DNA of 64,000 nucleotides from Sulfurospirillum diekertiae (GTDB lineage Bacteria > Campylobacterota > Campylobacteria > Campylobacterales > Sulfurospirillaceae): the NCBI RefSeq assembly GCF_011769985.2, contig NZ_CP039734.2:496001-560000 (forward strand), written 5' to 3'. Below the pieces are notes generated by a model. It was not told where the DNA came from. It ran no database searches and saw only the letters and a program-made list of their open reading frames with translations. A program made the position numbers and the translations under genes. Position 1 is the stretch's first letter. Every line of letters begins with the position of its first letter. Below, piece by piece: positions 11,883 to 19,446 of this stretch.

Positions 11883-13214
11883 ATGTCTTTAAACATGTTA
11901 TGTGATCAATGCTCTATGAGTGCAATCGGTGGCTGTGGTTCAAAAGGTCAAGATGCGGGAACGTGCGGCAAAGATGCCAACTTGGCGAAACTTCAAGACA
12001 TCATGATTTACGGTCTTAAAGGGCTCAGTGCTTATAGAACACACGCGAATGAATTTGGTGCAGACACCAAAGAAGTCGATGACGTCATCGCGCAAACACT
12101 CTACTTCACCCTTACCAACGTTAACTTCAACTTTGACGACCACATCGCTCAACTGATGAAAATCGGCTCTGCGGGTGTTAGAATGATGGACATCCTAAGC
12201 GAAGCACACACGTCTCACCTTGGTGTTCCAACGCCTGTGAGCATTTCTCAAAACAAGGCTGAGGGCAAAGGCATCTTGGTCAGTGGTCACAACCTTGACA
12301 TGCTTTTAGAGCTTTTACGTCAAACAGAGGGTAAAGGCATCAACATCTACACCCATTCCGAGATGCTTCCAGCGCATGGTTACCCAGAACTTAGAAAATA
12401 CGCACACCTTAAAGGTAACATCGGTAAATCATGGTTTGACCAAACCAAACTCTTTGAGCAATGGGACGGAACCATCATCGTGAACACCAACTGTATCGTT
12501 CCTCCAAAATCAACATCAACCTATGTCGATAGACTTTATACCTACGACATCGTCGGCATCAAAGAGGGCAAAAAAATCCACAATAACGACTTTAGCGAAG
12601 TGATCGCTCAAACATTAGCACTCCCCGATGTTACAGGTTTTGACAGTGATGAGACACTCGTAACGGGTCACCACTATAAAACCATCTTAGGTCTTGCTCC
12701 ACAAATTCTTGAAGCGGTCAAAGCAGGTAAAATCAGCCAGTTCTTCGTCATCGCGGGTTGTGATGCTCCTGGCTCAGGCGGGGAATACTACCGAAAAATG
12801 GCAGAGAGTTTACCAAATGACTGCGTAATTTTGACATCAAGTTGTGGTAAATTTAGATTTAACGACATCGACTTTGGAACGGTTGCAGACACAGGCATTC
12901 CTCGCTACCTAGACCTTGGTCAATGCAACGACAGTAACGGCGCTGTTCACATCGCTCTAGCGCTTGCTGGCGCACTTGGCGTAACGGTGCATGACTTACC
13001 AGTCTCTATCGTTCTTAGCTGGATGGAGCAAAAAGCAGTTCTTATTCTTCTAGGACTCTTTAGCCTTGGCATCAAAAACATCTACCTAGGACCAAAACCA
13101 CCACAATTTGTGAACGATGACATCTTCTCATTTTTGCAAGAGAACTTTAATTTGCATTTGACCGATGATGCAACATCAGATATGGAAAAATTATTGATTA
13201 AAAAACCTGCGTAA
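11883..13214 (+). CDS. hcp: Hybrid cluster protein (hydroxylamine/NO reductase), short class
   Basis: Hcp carries a cubane Fe-S cluster and a hybrid Fe-S-O cluster and is linked to detoxifying nitric oxide and hydroxylamine under anaerobic nitrosative stress. The N-terminal cysteines are Cys7, 10, 18 and 28 (CDQCSMS...GGCGSKG...GTCGKD). Hybrid-cluster signatures follow: INIYTHSEMLPAHGYP, NTNCIVPP, ITSSCGKFRF and LGQCND. At 443 aa it is about 100 residues shorter than E. coli Hcp and fits the class lacking the three-helix insert. It is a single gene with its own FNR-type promoter and terminator; no hcr reductase lies next to it. Confidence 0.94.
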   Translation: MSLNMLCDQCSMSAIGGCGSKGQDAGTCGKDANLAKLQDIMIYGLKGLSAYRTHANEFGADTKEVDDVIAQTLYFTLTNVNFNFDDHIAQLMKIGSAGVRMMDILSEAHTSHLGVPTPVSISQNKAEGKGILVSGHNLDMLLELLRQTEGKGINIYTHSEMLPAHGYPELRKYAHLKGNIGKSWFDQTKLFEQWDGTIIVNTNCIVPPKSTSTYVDRLYTYDIVGIKEGKKIHNNDFSEVIAQTLALPDVTGFDSDETLVTGHHYKTILGLAPQILEAVKAGKISQFFVIAGCDAPGSGGEYYRKMAESLPNDCVILTSSCGKFRFNDIDFGTVADTGIPRYLDLGQCNDSNGAVHIALALAGALGVTVHDLPVSIVLSWMEQKAVLILLGLFSLGIKNIYLGPKPPQFVNDDIFSFLQENFNLHLTDDATSDMEKLLIKKPA

Positions 13215-13216
13215 GG

Positions 13217-13230
13217 TTTTACATGTAAAA
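13217..13230. repeat. Iterated palindrome copy after hcp
   Basis: TTTTACATGTAAAA begins 3 bp after the hcp stop and directly precedes the hcp terminator. Confidence 0.9.
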
Positions 13231-13232
13231 CA

Positions 13233-13259
13233 AGGAAGCTTCAGGAGAGGCTTCTTTTG
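13233..13259 (+). terminator. Rho-independent terminator of hcp
   Basis: A GGAAGC/GCTTCT stem with a purine-rich loop is followed by TTTGT, immediately after hcp and the palindrome copy. Confidence 0.65.
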
Positions 13260-13332
13260 TCTCTAATGTATGCTAAATATTAAACACATAGGTTAGATTT
13301 AAGATCAGCATCAAAAGAGCCTTTTTTGAGTG

Positions 13333-13338
13333 TATACT
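13333..13338 (+). promoter_or_regulatory. -10 box of the lipocalin gene
   Basis: TATACT preceded by TG (extended -10), 28 bp upstream of the chosen ATG. It rules out the upstream in-frame GTG at 13330 as the start. Confidence 0.5.
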
Positions 13339-13365
13339 TTTAACATCACTCAAAAGGGAGTCTCT

Positions 13366-13875
13366 ATGTTCAAAATATTCATTACTTTTATATGCTCCTT
13401 CATTTTTCTAGGCTGCGCAAAACACTATGCACCACTTCCAACGGTCGAAAAAGTTGATCTAACCCGATACCTTGGCACATGGTATGAAATAGCACGGTAC
13501 GACCACTCGTTTGAAAAAGGCTGTACCAATGTGTCGGCGACATACGCGTTAAATGAAAACGGAAGCATCAACGTCCTCAATCAATGCACCAAAGAAGATG
13601 GAACCCACAAAGAAGCCCAAGGCATCGCCTACGCAGAAGATAAGACACATTCAAAATTAAAAGTGAGCTTCTTTAGACCTTTTTACGGTAATTATTGGGT
13701 GTTGATGCTCGATGAAGACTATACCTACGCACTTATAGGTGAACCCAGCCGCGAATACTTATGGATACTTTCTCGCTCAAAAAGCATCGATGAAGCAACA
13801 AAACAGAAGATATTAACCAAAGCGCAAGAGTATCACTACGACACCAGTAAGCTTTTGTGGGTGCAACAGAAGTGA
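13366..13875 (+). CDS. Lipocalin-family outer-membrane lipoprotein (Blc-like)
   Basis: 169 aa from ATG 13366, preceded by AAAGGGAG. A lipoprotein signal peptide ends in the lipobox LGCA. The lipocalin signature GTWYEIARYDHSFEKGC follows near residues 40-56, with N.SATYALNENGSINVLNQC and the C-terminal LWILSRS box. Bacterial Blc proteins bind fatty acids or lysophospholipids at the outer membrane and aid envelope maintenance; the ligand here is unknown. An in-frame GTG 36 bp upstream is unlikely because it would remove the signal peptide from the N terminus and overlaps the promoter. Confidence 0.92.
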   Translation: MFKIFITFICSFIFLGCAKHYAPLPTVEKVDLTRYLGTWYEIARYDHSFEKGCTNVSATYALNENGSINVLNQCTKEDGTHKEAQGIAYAEDKTHSKLKVSFFRPFYGNYWVLMLDEDYTYALIGEPSREYLWILSRSKSIDEATKQKILTKAQEYHYDTSKLLWVQQK

Positions 13876-13906
13876 AGAAAGTGTAATGATTCACCTGCGT
13901 AGAAGG

Positions 13907-13918
13907 TTTACATGTAAA
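13907..13918. repeat. Iterated palindrome copy
   Basis: Exact TTTACATGTAAA between the lipocalin gene and the convergent nuclease-like operon, just before a terminator hairpin. Confidence 0.9.
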
Positions 13919-13921
13919 GAT

Positions 13922-13942
13922 GAGGAAGCCTTTCAAGGCTTT
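13922..13942 (+). terminator. Terminator of the lipocalin gene
   Basis: GAAGCC and GGCTTTT form a short GC stem around TTTCAA and are followed by TG. It lies 47 bp after the lipocalin stop and only 12 bp from the end of the convergent operon. Confidence 0.5.
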
Positions 13943-13953
13943 TGCACAAAAAT

Positions 13954-15990
13954 CTAAGTTTTAGTCTCCTTTGCATGTTTTTTTAACTTTTTATACTCAT
14001 TGTACGAATCATAGATATTATTTGTATCATATTTCATAAATAATAGACCTAAAATATGATGAATTAAATTTTTATCATGCTCATTTTCGCTTAATAGCTC
14101 CAATGGGATAAATAAACTACTAAATAATATATTGTCTAAATTATTGCTTTGATTAAGTTCTTCTATAATCTTAGTTAGCTTGTCTAAGTCTTTGTTTGTA
14201 TCTGTAAAACTTTTAATAACATCAACTGGAGCCTCTTCTTTAAACGTAAACCTTATACGTATTAAAGCCAATAGCAGACTTTGAAGTCTATTATTCATTA
14301 TGCTATACCAATTATTGGGAGATAAAGAAATTTTAATGATTCTTTCATTATTGTAGTTGAGTACTTTACCATTTAAAAAATTTAATTGTTTTTTTTCTGT
14401 TAAATGCTTTTCATGTCTTAAAAGCTGTTGTTGTGAAGTTGCAAATGCTCTTATGAAATCTTGCAGAATATGCAAGTTTGACCCAGCAAAAGCATTTTTT
14501 GTGAGTGCTTTATTTTTGTTCTCAATAAATACGATTTTGTCATCTATCTTAATAACCAAATCGCACTCATATACTTCTCTTTTTGATAGAGCATATTTTC
14601 CTGAATATATATCAAAATTATTGTTTTCAAATATGGCTTCTACATAGTTATCTATATTCTTACCTATCTTAGTTGTAATATCTTCATCTATTTGAGATTT
14701 TATTTTTTCAACTAGGGCATTATAAAAGTACATTTTAAAATATTTAAAGCCAATAATATAATATTCATTTTTATAGTGAATGATTGGGTTGTGAACAAAA
14801 AGATTTTGCTCTTCAGTAGTATTTATAGGAACAGAATATCTTGAATTGATATTTTTTGAATCAATACAAAAGAACTTAATAATCTGTTCAAAATGTTTAA
14901 AAACTGTTATGTCGAGTTTTATAATATGTTGATTATTGCCAAATAGTTCTACTTGGTGCAGAAAATCAATTAAATTATTTTTTGAAAAGCCAAATTGTTT
15001 TTCAAATGTTGTGTTCAATGCAGAGTTACCAATTAGATTATTTATATAATTTATAACTGTCGAAGTTTTGAGTGGATAACTGAGCAAATATAAACTAGAA
15101 TGTAAAATTTGTTTTTTAAGTTTTTCTTGAATATTTGTTTCATCAATAAATATATATTCCCATTGATTAAAAGATCTAAGTTGAAATAAATTAATAAATT
15201 GTTTGAAATAGTTTGTCATAGACTTTAGAGTTTCTAAATTCTTCTTTTTAAAATTTGAATGATGGATATTTTTTATTGCAATATTAATTATATAGTTGAA
15301 TGGTATGGTTTTGTCATGACGGCTTTGACTGAGTATGAAATGAATAAAGTGAAATATATCAACTTGTTGCAATTTTTTTTCTATGATTGACGCGATTTTT
15401 TTATCTTGCCCTTTTTGAAAATTAATTTCCCCATCAATACAGTTTAAATTGATATTTACATACTTCTTAAAAAATATAATAGCATCGACAAGATGAGGGA
15501 TTTCAGTATTATAATCTTCTCTTAGATTTGCAAAAAATCCATTTTGGCTCAATAAGTTAAGTAAATAGAGTTTTTTTATCAGTTCTTTCCAAAATAACTT
15601 GTTTGAAAAATCTATAATCTTTTCTTCGTTATATATTCCATAATCTCTTATTGTTTTAGCTAAGGAATAATAAATATGTCCCTTTTCTAATTTCTTATCA
15701 TTCACCAAATGATCTATATGAATTTGCTTTGATACATGATATAAAGTACTCATATCCATAGTGCAATTATCTTGACTGGATAGTATAAATTGTTTAATTT
15801 GTTCTACAAATAAATCTTGAGCCTTGTTCCCATTTATAGGATAATCTATTTCGTAATCGTTTAAAATCTTTTTTTCTATAGAAGGAAAGTCTAATTTTTT
15901 AATATTTTCTAATTCATTAAAATAACTTTTTTCAGTATCTAAAACATCATTTACAAGGTTGATAAAGAGTTGAGTATAGTTTTTGCTCAT
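13954..15990 (-). CDS. Large protein with C-terminal PD-(D/E)xK nuclease-like motif
   Basis: A 678-residue protein I do not recognise as a named family. Residues 1-440 are mostly helical, Lys/Asn/Ile rich, without clear motifs. At 470-492 the pattern Y-E-C-D477-L-V-I then I-E490-N-K492 sits on two strands and matches the D...ExK metal site of PD-(D/E)xK nucleases. A helical tail with Gln- and Lys-rich stretches follows. Base composition is clearly more AT-rich than the flanking genes, suggesting transfer. The ATG overlaps the stop of the upstream NERD gene by 4 bp (ATGA), so the two are translationally coupled. No methyltransferase is nearby, so a classical restriction pair is unlikely. Role unknown; a defence function is inference. 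Confidence 0.85.
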   Translation of the reverse strand: MSKNYTQLFINLVNDVLDTEKSYFNELENIKKLDFPSIEKKILNDYEIDYPINGNKAQDLFVEQIKQFILSSQDNCTMDMSTLYHVSKQIHIDHLVNDKKLEKGHIYYSLAKTIRDYGIYNEEKIIDFSNKLFWKELIKKLYLLNLLSQNGFFANLREDYNTEIPHLVDAIIFFKKYVNINLNCIDGEINFQKGQDKKIASIIEKKLQQVDIFHFIHFILSQSRHDKTIPFNYIINIAIKNIHHSNFKKKNLETLKSMTNYFKQFINLFQLRSFNQWEYIFIDETNIQEKLKKQILHSSLYLLSYPLKTSTVINYINNLIGNSALNTTFEKQFGFSKNNLIDFLHQVELFGNNQHIIKLDITVFKHFEQIIKFFCIDSKNINSRYSVPINTTEEQNLFVHNPIIHYKNEYYIIGFKYFKMYFYNALVEKIKSQIDEDITTKIGKNIDNYVEAIFENNNFDIYSGKYALSKREVYECDLVIKIDDKIVFIENKNKALTKNAFAGSNLHILQDFIRAFATSQQQLLRHEKHLTEKKQLNFLNGKVLNYNNERIIKISLSPNNWYSIMNNRLQSLLLALIRIRFTFKEEAPVDVIKSFTDTNKDLDKLTKIIEELNQSNNLDNILFSSLFIPLELLSENEHDKNLIHHILGLLFMKYDTNNIYDSYNEYKKLKKHAKETKT

Positions 15991-16739
15991 GAAGTACCTT
16001 TCACTATATTCCTACACTTCGGATATCCACTACATCCATAAAATTCTTCCCCTGTTTGTCTATTGTGTCTTAAAACCATTTCTTTCCCACATCGTGAGCA
16101 TATTTTAGTTGTTTGTGTTGGAGTAGGCTTGGTATTGTGTCGTGCAGATAAGTTTGCAACATGTTCCCTATCGGTTGTAAAACTTTGTTTGAGGCGTTTT
16201 TGGCTTAAGGTTTCAATCGTCATGTCAAATTGATACGCGGAGAGTTTTTCTTCTTGGAAAGATTGGATGTAGGAAGTGTATTTGGCGTTGATAAAAACAT
16301 TTTTTGGCATCGTGGTTTTAAATTTGCAATCACCGATAAAAACAACGATAGACATAATGTTTTCAGTCGGTAGTGCCAATATCTCTTCTAAAGCTTTGGT
16401 GTGTCGATAGTTTTGTCGTAAAGGGTTTTGAAAGCGGTGTTTTTCTTTGAAGATTTGCTGTGTCCACATACTCTGATGCTCATCTCCAAAAATCCACCCT
16501 TTCATGTTTTTGGTTTCAATCACAAAAACACCATAACGAGAGACGATAATATGGTCTATCTGTGTGGTTGAGCCATCATTCAATTGCAAGGTGATGTTTC
16601 TAATATTGATATATTCGTTTTTGTTAAGATGCAAAGAAGTCGCAACATTCACCGTAAATTCGCCGACTTTACCTTTCATCCACGGTGTTTTAAATAAAAT
16701 ACCCAGCACAAAAACAGAACCAATAAGCCAGAAAATCAC
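15987..16739 (-). CDS. NERD nuclease-domain protein with C-terminal topoisomerase-type zinc finger
   Basis: 250 aa. A hydrophobic N-terminal segment (about 2-17) predicts membrane anchoring. The NERD domain follows: GE at 26-27, QIDH with Asp62, and IETK with Glu75 and Lys77, the PD-(D/E)xK-type active site. The C terminus is a four-Cys zinc ribbon of topoisomerase I type (Cys214, 217, 236, 242; CSRCGKEMVLR and YGCSGYPKC). NERD-plus-zinc-finger architecture is known, usually of unknown function, and implies DNA handling. First gene of the two-gene operon. A palindrome copy lies 11 bp upstream of the start. Confidence 0.9.
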   Translation of the reverse strand: MIFWLIGSVFVLGILFKTPWMKGKVGEFTVNVATSLHLNKNEYINIRNITLQLNDGSTTQIDHIIVSRYGVFVIETKNMKGWIFGDEHQSMWTQQIFKEKHRFQNPLRQNYRHTKALEEILALPTENIMSIVVFIGDCKFKTTMPKNVFINAKYTSYIQSFQEEKLSAYQFDMTIETLSQKRLKQSFTTDREHVANLSARHNTKPTPTQTTKICSRCGKEMVLRHNRQTGEEFYGCSGYPKCRNIVKGTS

Positions 16740-16749
16740 TTTATTTGCC

Positions 16750-16761
16750 TTTACATGTAAA
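16750..16761. repeat. Iterated palindrome copy upstream of the NERD gene
   Basis: Exact TTTACATGTAAA. Together with the copy at 13907 it brackets the two-gene nuclease-like operon, which contains no copy itself; with an average spacing near 2 kb this may be chance. Confidence 0.9.
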
Positions 16762-16812
16762 AAATAAAATTACGTTATTGTATCTTTTTTGAAAAGAACC
16801 TTTCGCCTATCT

Positions 16813-17688
16813 TCACTCCTCCTCAACCAACCTCTGCCTAATCGCCTGCAACTCTTCTTGTCGCTTGTCGTCCGCTTCAGGGTAGTGCATATCAAGTGCT
16901 TTGAAGGTGTCTAAAAGAATGTTTGAGATGATGAGGCGGGCATTTTTTTTGTCGTCTGCGGGGACGATGTACCATGGGGCGTGTTTGGTGCTGGTGGCGC
17001 TGAGGCAGGATTCGTAGGCGTGCATGTATGCTTTCCAGTATTGGCGCTCTTCCAAGTCTGCGAGGCTAAATTTCCAGTTTTTATTGGGTTTGTCGATACG
17101 CTCAAGAAAGCGTTTTTTCTGTTCGTCTTTGGAGAGATGGAGAAAAAATTTGACGATTTTCGTGCCGTTTCGGTGCAGGTGATTTTCCAAGTCCATGATG
17201 GAGCGGTATCGCTCCCTCCAAATGCTCTCTTCATCTAACACGCTATCAGGCAGTCTTTGTCCTTTTAAAATCTCAGGGTGAACCCGAACGATGAGCACTT
17301 CTTCATAATACGAACGGTTAAAAACGCCTATCTTCCCGCGTTCGGGTAAAACGCACGTCGTGCGCCAGAGAAAATCATGCGCGAGTTCTGTGGCGGCTGG
17401 GTGTTTGAAACTGAAAACCTGACAGCCTTGTGGGTTGATGCCTGAGAGAACATGACGAATCACGCCATCTTTCCCTGCCGCGTCCATCGCTTGAAAGATG
17501 AGTAAAACGGCGTATTTGTTGGAGGCATAGAGGAGTTGTTGGAGGTCGCTTAACGCTTCTATATTTTCCTTCAGCGTCTCTTCATACGCTTCTTTGGAGG
17601 CATAAAATGCTTTGACAAGCGTGGGGAATTTTTTAAGCTCAACTTTTGCGCCTTCTGGCACGAGGAAATCTTCGGTTTTTAGTTTCAT
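16813..17688 (-). CDS. ppk2: Polyphosphate kinase 2 family protein
   Basis: PPK2 enzymes transfer phosphate from polyphosphate to nucleotides (NDP or NMP). The protein shows the Walker A-like [11 protein letters not shown] at residues 65-75, the lid region [16 protein letters not shown], the Walker B-like [11 protein letters not shown], and the conserved [15 protein letters not shown]. 291 aa is the usual length for one-domain PPK2. Substrate (AMP, ADP or GDP) cannot be settled by eye. It is a single gene between two palindrome copies, transcribed from an AT-rich spacer near 17700. Confidence 0.92.
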
Positions 17689-17703
17689 GATACGTTTTTC
17701 TCC

Positions 17704-17714
17704 TTACATGTAAA
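17704..17714. repeat. Iterated palindrome copy upstream of ppk2
   Basis: TTACATGTAAA, 15 bp upstream of the ppk2 start codon and overlapping the region where its ribosome binding site lies (AAGGAG, 17698-17703). Confidence 0.85.
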
Positions 17715-17791
17715 GAATCATAGAACCCAAAAAAGTCAAAAAGAACGTACGATCATTGTAACAAAATAGAGATCATTTTGGAGCTTTTACT

Positions 17792-17803
17792 TTTACATGT
17801 AAA
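17792..17803. repeat. Iterated palindrome copy
   Basis: Exact TTTACATGTAAA, four bases beyond the stop codon of the membrane/cytidylate-kinase-like gene. Confidence 0.9.
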
Positions 17804-17807
17804 GATT

Positions 17808-19094
17808 CTAGTGCGCAAAATCCTTCAGTAGCTCGATAATCTTTTGAGCTGCTTTTTCAGAACCGTACAAAGAAGCATCCAGCGTGACATGGTAGTTGGT
17901 TGCGTCTTTCCAATCGTGTTTGGTGTAGTGAAGGCAGTAATTGGCGCGATTTTTATCGGACATCTCTAAGTCTTTGTCGCTGCACGGTGGGGTGGCTTTG
18001 TATTTTTCATTGACTTTTGTTTTACGATACGCCATGTTGGCATGAATGAAAACATTGAAACAATTTGGGTCATCTTTTAAGATAAAATTAGCACAACGCC
18101 CGACAATCACACATGCATCTTTGGCGCAAATATCGCGGATAATCTTACTTTGCACCATAAACAAAACATCGGCAGGCGGAAGTTGGTCATCCACGTAGGC
18201 GTAGTTTTGTTCGTAGAGTTCATAAAGTAGTTCACTGGCTAAGTGTTGTTCGTTGGCTTGAATGTATTCCGCCGTGTAGCCCGTCTCTTCGGCGGTTAGT
18301 TTGATAAGCTCTTTATCGTAAAAAGGAATGCCAAGCTTTTGGGCGATCATCTCTCCTATCTCATGTCCGCCGCTACCGTACTCTCGTGAGATGGTAATGA
18401 CCAGAGAATTGAGCGCTGCTTCTTGGGTGCTTTGAGTTTGAGGAGCGACATACGTCCCCAGCCATTGTTCGACAAACACCAATTTGGTGCTGTACAATTT
18501 AATCAACGCTCCAACAAGCAACGCCGCAACAACACTGCCTTCGCGTATGCCCTCCAGGCGATTTAAAAAGGTAAACGAGCTGATGACACCAATGATGACC
18601 ATCGAGCTGTCTAAACTGATTTTGACTTTACCAAACTCTTTGTGGTACGTGTGCGAGATTGCAACCGCCAAACCATCGAGCGGTAAATAGGTCAGTTTTG
18701 TTTTTAAGAGTAAAAAAATGCCAAATGCCAACACACTACACGCCGCTAAACACCAAAAAGCTTGTGCGACATACGACGTGGGGCTTAGCGAAGAGATCAG
18801 ATGCATCGTCAAATCAATGCAGTACCCAAAAACGATGACAGAAGGGAGTTGAACCAGTTGTGTCCATTGGTAGTTTTTGCGCAGAACCGCCATTTGCGAG
18901 GCAATAAAAACAAGGTTGAGCAAAATGGTCAATTCGCCCAAACTAAGAGGCATCGTTAAGCTGTATACATACGGTACACACGAGATAGGCGAAACCCCAA
19001 GATTGGCTTTAACCGAGAGTGAGACACCTAACGCCATAATGAATTGCCCTAAAATAAAAACGACAATTCGCTTCGTCATATTCAAATTTAGCAT
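17808..19094 (-). CDS. Fusion of YczE/YitT-like membrane domain and cytidylate-kinase-like domain
   Basis: 428 aa from ATG 19094, chosen because AAGGA lies 10 bp upstream; a longer frame to 19184 adds about 30 unlike residues. Residues about 5-215 form a five- to six-helix membrane domain of the YczE/DUF6198 type (FIMALGVSLSVKANLGVSPISC is diagnostic in style). Residues about 240-425 form a cytidylate-kinase-like P-loop domain beginning ITISREYGSGGHEIGE, with VGRCANFIL and a lid. The domain pair recurs in anaerobes as far as I know but its role is undefined. A cytosolic kinase tethered to a transporter-like domain suggests nucleotide sensing or salvage; this is inference. Confidence 0.87.
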   Translation of the reverse strand: MLNLNMTKRIVVFILGQFIMALGVSLSVKANLGVSPISCVPYVYSLTMPLSLGELTILLNLVFIASQMAVLRKNYQWTQLVQLPSVIVFGYCIDLTMHLISSLSPTSYVAQAFWCLAACSVLAFGIFLLLKTKLTYLPLDGLAVAISHTYHKEFGKVKISLDSSMVIIGVISSFTFLNRLEGIREGSVVAALLVGALIKLYSTKLVFVEQWLGTYVAPQTQSTQEAALNSLVITISREYGSGGHEIGEMIAQKLGIPFYDKELIKLTAEETGYTAEYIQANEQHLASELLYELYEQNYAYVDDQLPPADVLFMVQSKIIRDICAKDACVIVGRCANFILKDDPNCFNVFIHANMAYRKTKVNEKYKATPPCSDKDLEMSDKNRANYCLHYTKHDWKDATNYHVTLDASLYGSEKAAQKIIELLKDFAH

Positions 19095-19230
19095 AGTTGA
19101 GTCTTCCTTCATGAATGCAGTAGCGACAAAAAACGTTTTGAGGGTGCATGGGAGTGTTGAAATGAAGGAGAAACTATACTCCAAACTAAATTAGAGAAAC
19201 AAAAGTTTTTTAAAGTAGATGCGTTTCATT

Positions 19231-19446
19231 TCACATCGAAATGGCTTCAACTTCGATGATTTCACCGCACGCTTCGATCTTTTCGCCTGCAACGATTTTC
19301 GCGCGCTTCCTCGTCTCTACTTCGCCGTTTCGCTTTACTTGTCCCTCTTCGATGAGCATCTTCGCTTGCGCACCACTTTCGGCTACGCCAGTGACTTTAA
19401 GCAGTTTAAACAATTCGATAAAATCTTCTTCTAATTCAAATGTCAT
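19231..19446 (-). CDS. Small S4-domain RNA-binding protein
   Basis: 71 aa, YbcJ-like. A single S4 fold: FIELFKLLKVTGVAESGAQAKMLI, then the turn EGQVKRNGEVETRKRAKI and a final strand. Proteins of this type bind structured or ribosomal RNA. ATG at 19446 follows AAAGGAATAAAA. It is a single gene between the membrane/kinase fusion and the Rieske operon. Confidence 0.9.
   Translation of the reverse strand: MTFELEEDFIELFKLLKVTGVAESGAQAKMLIEEGQVKRNGEVETRKRAKIVAGEKIEACGEIIEVEAISM

Follow-up and report, generated by a model that had tools for sequence, protein, structure and literature searches.

A probable one-gene PD-(D/E)xK defence nuclease in a variable chromosomal slot of Sulfurospirillum diekertiae

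A 678-aa protein encoded by Sulfurospirillum diekertiae, a member of a genus noted for organohalide respiration, is probably a one-gene, horizontally mobile nuclease acting against phages or plasmids. Its gene lies in the window (the whole stretch of 64,000 nucleotides that was analysed) directly behind a gene for a membrane-anchored protein with a NERD domain. The earlier note on this DNA had read the two together as a compact anti-phage or plasmid-defence module of two nuclease-like proteins. Its proposal of a defence function has held up as a candidate assignment for the 678-aa gene, which lies in a defence hotspot and has relatives with defence genes as neighbours, but the two-gene module has not. 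The features discussed below are collected in Table 1.

Table 1. Features of the locus, in window positions
Feature	Position	Strand	Basis
678-aa stand-alone PD-(D/E)xK nuclease-like candidate defence protein (cargo gene)	13954..15990	-	family alignment, AF2 models, GC 24.8%
Predicted PD-(D/E)xK core, residues 443-556 (G443, D447, D477, E490, K492, Q522)	14323..14664	-	invariant columns, AF2 order, Foldseek matches mostly PD-(D/E)xK
Mainly helical N-terminal region, residues ~1-370; putative sensing/regulatory part	14881..15990	-	secondary structure, lower conservation
Membrane-anchored NERD and zinc-ribbon protein, resident in part of the genus, not the cargo's partner	15987..16739	-	Pfam; found with different cargos at this locus in G019, G007 and G014
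Segment replaced by mcrB-mcrC in G015 (hotspot cargo slot)	13929..16806		blastn homology stops at 13928 and resumes at 16807
Approximate variable hotspot interval across Sulfurospirillum, hcp to Rieske gene; ppk2 itself varies	13254..19246		genome comparison

The 678-aa gene starts with ATG and the NERD gene (250 aa) with GTG, and the two share four base pairs (ATGA). At 24.8%, the GC content of the 678-aa gene is the lowest among the 51 ORFs of the window, about 4 standard deviations under their mean (39.5%, sd 3.6), and that of the NERD gene is 37.1%. The neighbours are metabolic, with names read from the sequence: hcp (hybrid-cluster protein), a lipocalin-like gene and ppk2. Reading frames, overlap, AT-richness and metabolic surroundings are thus as the earlier note described them. 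The region shares 98.3% DNA identity with S. diekertiae JPD-1. Two similar stretches of about 70 bp follow hcp (13189-13253) and the lipocalin gene (13863-13937), a palindrome, TTTACATGTAAA, occurs at 13909 and again near 16750, and TTACATGTAAA, conserved in four species, precedes the NERD gene.

Alignment and predicted structure make it very probable that the 678-aa protein is PD-(D/E)xK nuclease-like around residues 443-556, and confidence in this fold assignment is high. The assignment is well supported because the key residues are invariant and the predicted core is of the PD-(D/E)xK type. Across 12 aligned members, down to 16-17% overall identity, D477, E490, K492, G443, Y466 and Q522 are unchanged in every row, as are F488 and G503, and position 447 (D447 in the window protein) is always an acid; the D...(D/E)-x-K motif that is catalytic in this superfamily is therefore present in 12 of 12. 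The D477...E490-N-K492 motif first picked out in a single protein is thus a property of the family. Conservation is highest in residues 441-560, with 54% in the core versus 37-41% in the N-terminal region, which is mainly helical in the AF2 models. These were built on six rows (the window protein and the whole-genome relatives, leaving out the plasmid rows) and are of moderate quality, with mean pLDDT of 66.7 and 58.9, the core blocks being the better, confident parts. They predict, in the same order in a separate model of the domain, a helix (415-455), three strands (460-463, 478-482 and 485-491), a second helix (505-533) and a last strand (550-557), which is the alpha-beta-beta-beta-alpha-beta core expected round the motif. 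D477 opens one strand, E490 is on the following strand with K492 right after it, and two long helices flank them. In Foldseek searches against the PDB, the matches were individually weak (best 3.3e-3, none with E < 0.001) and largely to PD-(D/E)xK enzymes, including R2 endonuclease, RPA0323, AF1548, Bax1, the BspD6I small subunit, RecB nuclease, MGME1, McrC and XisH. A nuclease fold around residues 470-500, on which the original reading depended, is thus predicted.

The 678-aa protein has no significant match in the Pfam, NCBIfam and PADLOC libraries or among PDB sequences; the PDB searches, run with the protein itself and with profiles, turned up no related nuclease. The literature search returned no description of its family, none of whose members is a characterised defence protein. 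Within these libraries it thus belongs to no named system, as the earlier note had supposed. A HisKA_2 match (0.047) fell under the Pfam cut-off and was rejected. Six further Campylobacterota species have relatives (39-63% identity, and 54-63% across families), and others, at 16-23% identity, lie on several plasmids of Pseudomonadota, mostly conjugative ones. The spread is patchy: 8 of 397 Campylobacterota genomes (~2%), the window's own included, carry the gene, and all other sampled Sulfurospirillum species lack it. A scan of genome contigs returned the same species only. Phage records and viral contigs held no relative, and therefore no prophage origin is indicated.

The best view of the mobile unit comes from G185 (comparison genomes and loci are designated here by G and L numbers), where the gene for a 63%-identical protein lies between secA and lolA in an insertion of 2.3 kb that holds only this gene. 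The insertion is absent from G412 and G226, and secA and lolA are directly adjacent in related genomes. Since the insertion contains nothing else, the mobile unit is, on this genome comparison, a single gene. No terminal repeats are evident by eye at its ends, and at the boundaries of the cargo segment neither clear repeats nor the ends of known insertion elements were found.

A comparison of Sulfurospirillum genomes marks the interval between hcp and the Rieske gene as a defence hotspot, and the literature search found no description of one in this genus. The interval holds McrB and McrC in G015, a PD-Lambda-4_A-like protein in G019 and, by similarity, in G007, a kinase in G014, HipA in G004, a pair of RT_UG35/UG36 reverse transcriptases in G012, a TIR protein in G002 and PDC-S31 in G009. 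G010 has a GHKL ATPase, an HNH-like ORF and an M.Eco57I-type methylase, and G020 an HSDR_N/N6-methylase protein with an HsdS-like ORF, the HNH-like and HsdS-like labels being read from the sequence. Non-defence genes are found there too, namely lipocalin, ppk2 and a cupin in G013, in which only the cupin and a small S4-like ORF occupy the less than 1 kb between the anchors. The hotspot was seen in the window and at loci L049-L059 and L077-L082. Its cargo in G021 (L080:7177-9027) is a 616-aa AT-rich protein of unrecognised kind. Beside hcp in several species there recurs a small gene pair that resembles, by eye, DUF433/DUF5615-type toxin-antitoxin genes (L049:1651-2251, L050:1625-2177, L056:4151-4751, L059:5657-6047 and L080:9185-9737).

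The 678-aa gene thus has the hotspot location expected of an anti-phage gene, and relatives elsewhere adjoin GajA/GajB, i.e., Gabija (G236), a TnsA/TnsB Tn7-like transposon (G264), AbiEii (G414) and an FRG protein (G096). The G236 copy (L073:7348-8573) is broken by a stop and adjoins an intact-looking GajA/GajB pair, and at L071:3704-10543 the family member adjoins a Tn7-like tnsA-tnsB-(tnsC-like) set and may be its cargo. On this genomic context the 678-aa gene is probably a defence gene, by a link that is strong but indirect.

The clean single-gene insertion, the members on plasmids and the one beside a Tn7-like transposon would also fit a nuclease that is selfish or plasmid-borne, with a role such as addiction or homing in place of immunity. 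This is unlikely: no antitoxin is associated with the gene, no terminal repeats are evident by eye at the G185 ends, insertion sites vary and defence surroundings recur. Still less likely is a housekeeping nuclease for DNA repair or RNA processing that happens to be of AT-rich origin. Repair nucleases do occur among PD-(D/E)xK enzymes and one member is annotated as YraN family, but so patchy a gene, missing from the other sampled Sulfurospirillum species and found in about 2% of Campylobacterota genomes, would be an odd housekeeper.

The gene upstream is what it had been taken for. Pfam finds a NERD domain (PF08378; 4.8e-32, residues 22-135) that spans D62, E75 and K77 and scores 111.2 bits against a cut-off of 22.1, a Topo-I C4 zinc ribbon (3.1e-10, residues 213-247) follows, and a hydrophobic N-terminus precedes both domains. 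The same gene, 88-89% identical, is found at the same locus in G019, G007 and G014, where DNA similarity to the window ends inside its last codons (the end reads AAAGGTACATAA in G007 versus AAAGGTACTTCATGA in the window). What follows it there is different: a protein of 1243-1257 aa in G019 and G007, and a protein kinase gene with a 224-aa gene in G014. The PD-Lambda-4_A match was tested in the G019 protein (1.2e-24), and the G007 copy is similar at its start. These large proteins are AT-rich (L049:2354-6085 and L050:2275-6048), and the match at L049 covers the first 705 residues. Nor does the 678-aa family keep company with NERD genes: none is nearby in the six other species, being absent or hundreds of kilobases away, and none lies beside the relatives on Pseudomonadota plasmids. 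By this comparison the NERD gene is a resident of the locus, with different defence genes exchanged behind it, and not a partner of the 678-aa gene. That the two proteins cooperate as a translation-coupled defence unit is therefore very improbable and, on the genomes compared, largely refuted: the ATGA overlap and shared strand in S. diekertiae, and the fact that relative to G015 both genes occupy the slot as a single segment, speak for it, but NERD stays put with two unrelated cargo types, relatives of the 678-aa gene do without NERD, the G185 insertion holds one gene, and in the three other NERD-keeping species the cargo starts about 60-360 bp past the NERD stop, so the overlap is not conserved. 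The pair was not found together elsewhere, an outcome that the earlier note had named in advance as counting against it. More generally, overlapping start and stop codons are no proof of functional pairing, as cargo may join precisely at the stop of a resident gene.

The 678-aa protein, then, would act alone. Its C-terminal core is predicted to cut nucleic acid in a metal-dependent manner, using the acid at 447, D477, E490-x-K492 and Q522. The helical N-terminal region (1-370) may detect the invader, foreign DNA or a signal of infection and would hold the nuclease off until then; once activated, the enzyme would degrade nucleic acid, whether the invader's or that of the entire cell. Such latency would explain why neither a methyltransferase nor an antitoxin accompanies it; as had been noted, none lies next to the window gene. 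The gene appears to have joined the hcp-ppk2 slot exactly at the stop codon of the resident NERD gene, and it is therefore probably translated from the NERD message, the ATGA junction giving the cargo use of that transcript. No recognisable promoter of its own was found above chance.

If this is true, a one-gene immune nuclease with a predicted active site open to direct testing is added to those known, missing from the defence catalogues searched, and the hcp-to-Rieske interval becomes a Sulfurospirillum defence slot that can be mined for unrecognised cargo. There is about an even chance that the protein represents a widespread, unnamed family of single-protein immune nucleases on Campylobacterota chromosomes and Pseudomonadota plasmids, without methyltransferase or antitoxin and with an N-terminal sensor unlike known families.

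Several known systems share some of these features. Restriction-modification was rejected because no cognate methyltransferase or specificity subunit adjoins the window gene, and the G185 insertion holds the gene alone. UPF0102/YraN and DpnII-type nucleases gave weak single-member matches (0.015 and 2.7e-4, respectively), and a Rhizobium member is annotated as YraN, but the family is 650-700 aa at full length, has no methyltransferase partner and has only one member matching each. Three of the 12 members have a brief match to the PADLOC candidate defence models PDC-M29B and HEC-02B at the nuclease motif (best 3.4e-4), but it spans only about 35-45 residues of models of 164-169 positions, and the window protein is unmatched. 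NERD (PF08378) belongs to the same nuclease superfamily, and its true representative here is the upstream gene; the 678-aa protein has no PF08378 match, one of 12 members matches weakly (0.013), and membership was rejected. Shedu was rejected in the same way, since none of the 12 members matches DUF4263 or PADLOC Shedu and the Foldseek comparison with SduA gave only E = 1.6, probability 0.11. Nevertheless, the layout of the 678-aa protein resembles that of Shedu (SduA), in which a single gene encodes a defence protein whose PD-(D/E)xK nuclease is C-terminal and set apart from an N-terminal region; the SduA structure 8ps5 is among the weak Foldseek matches.
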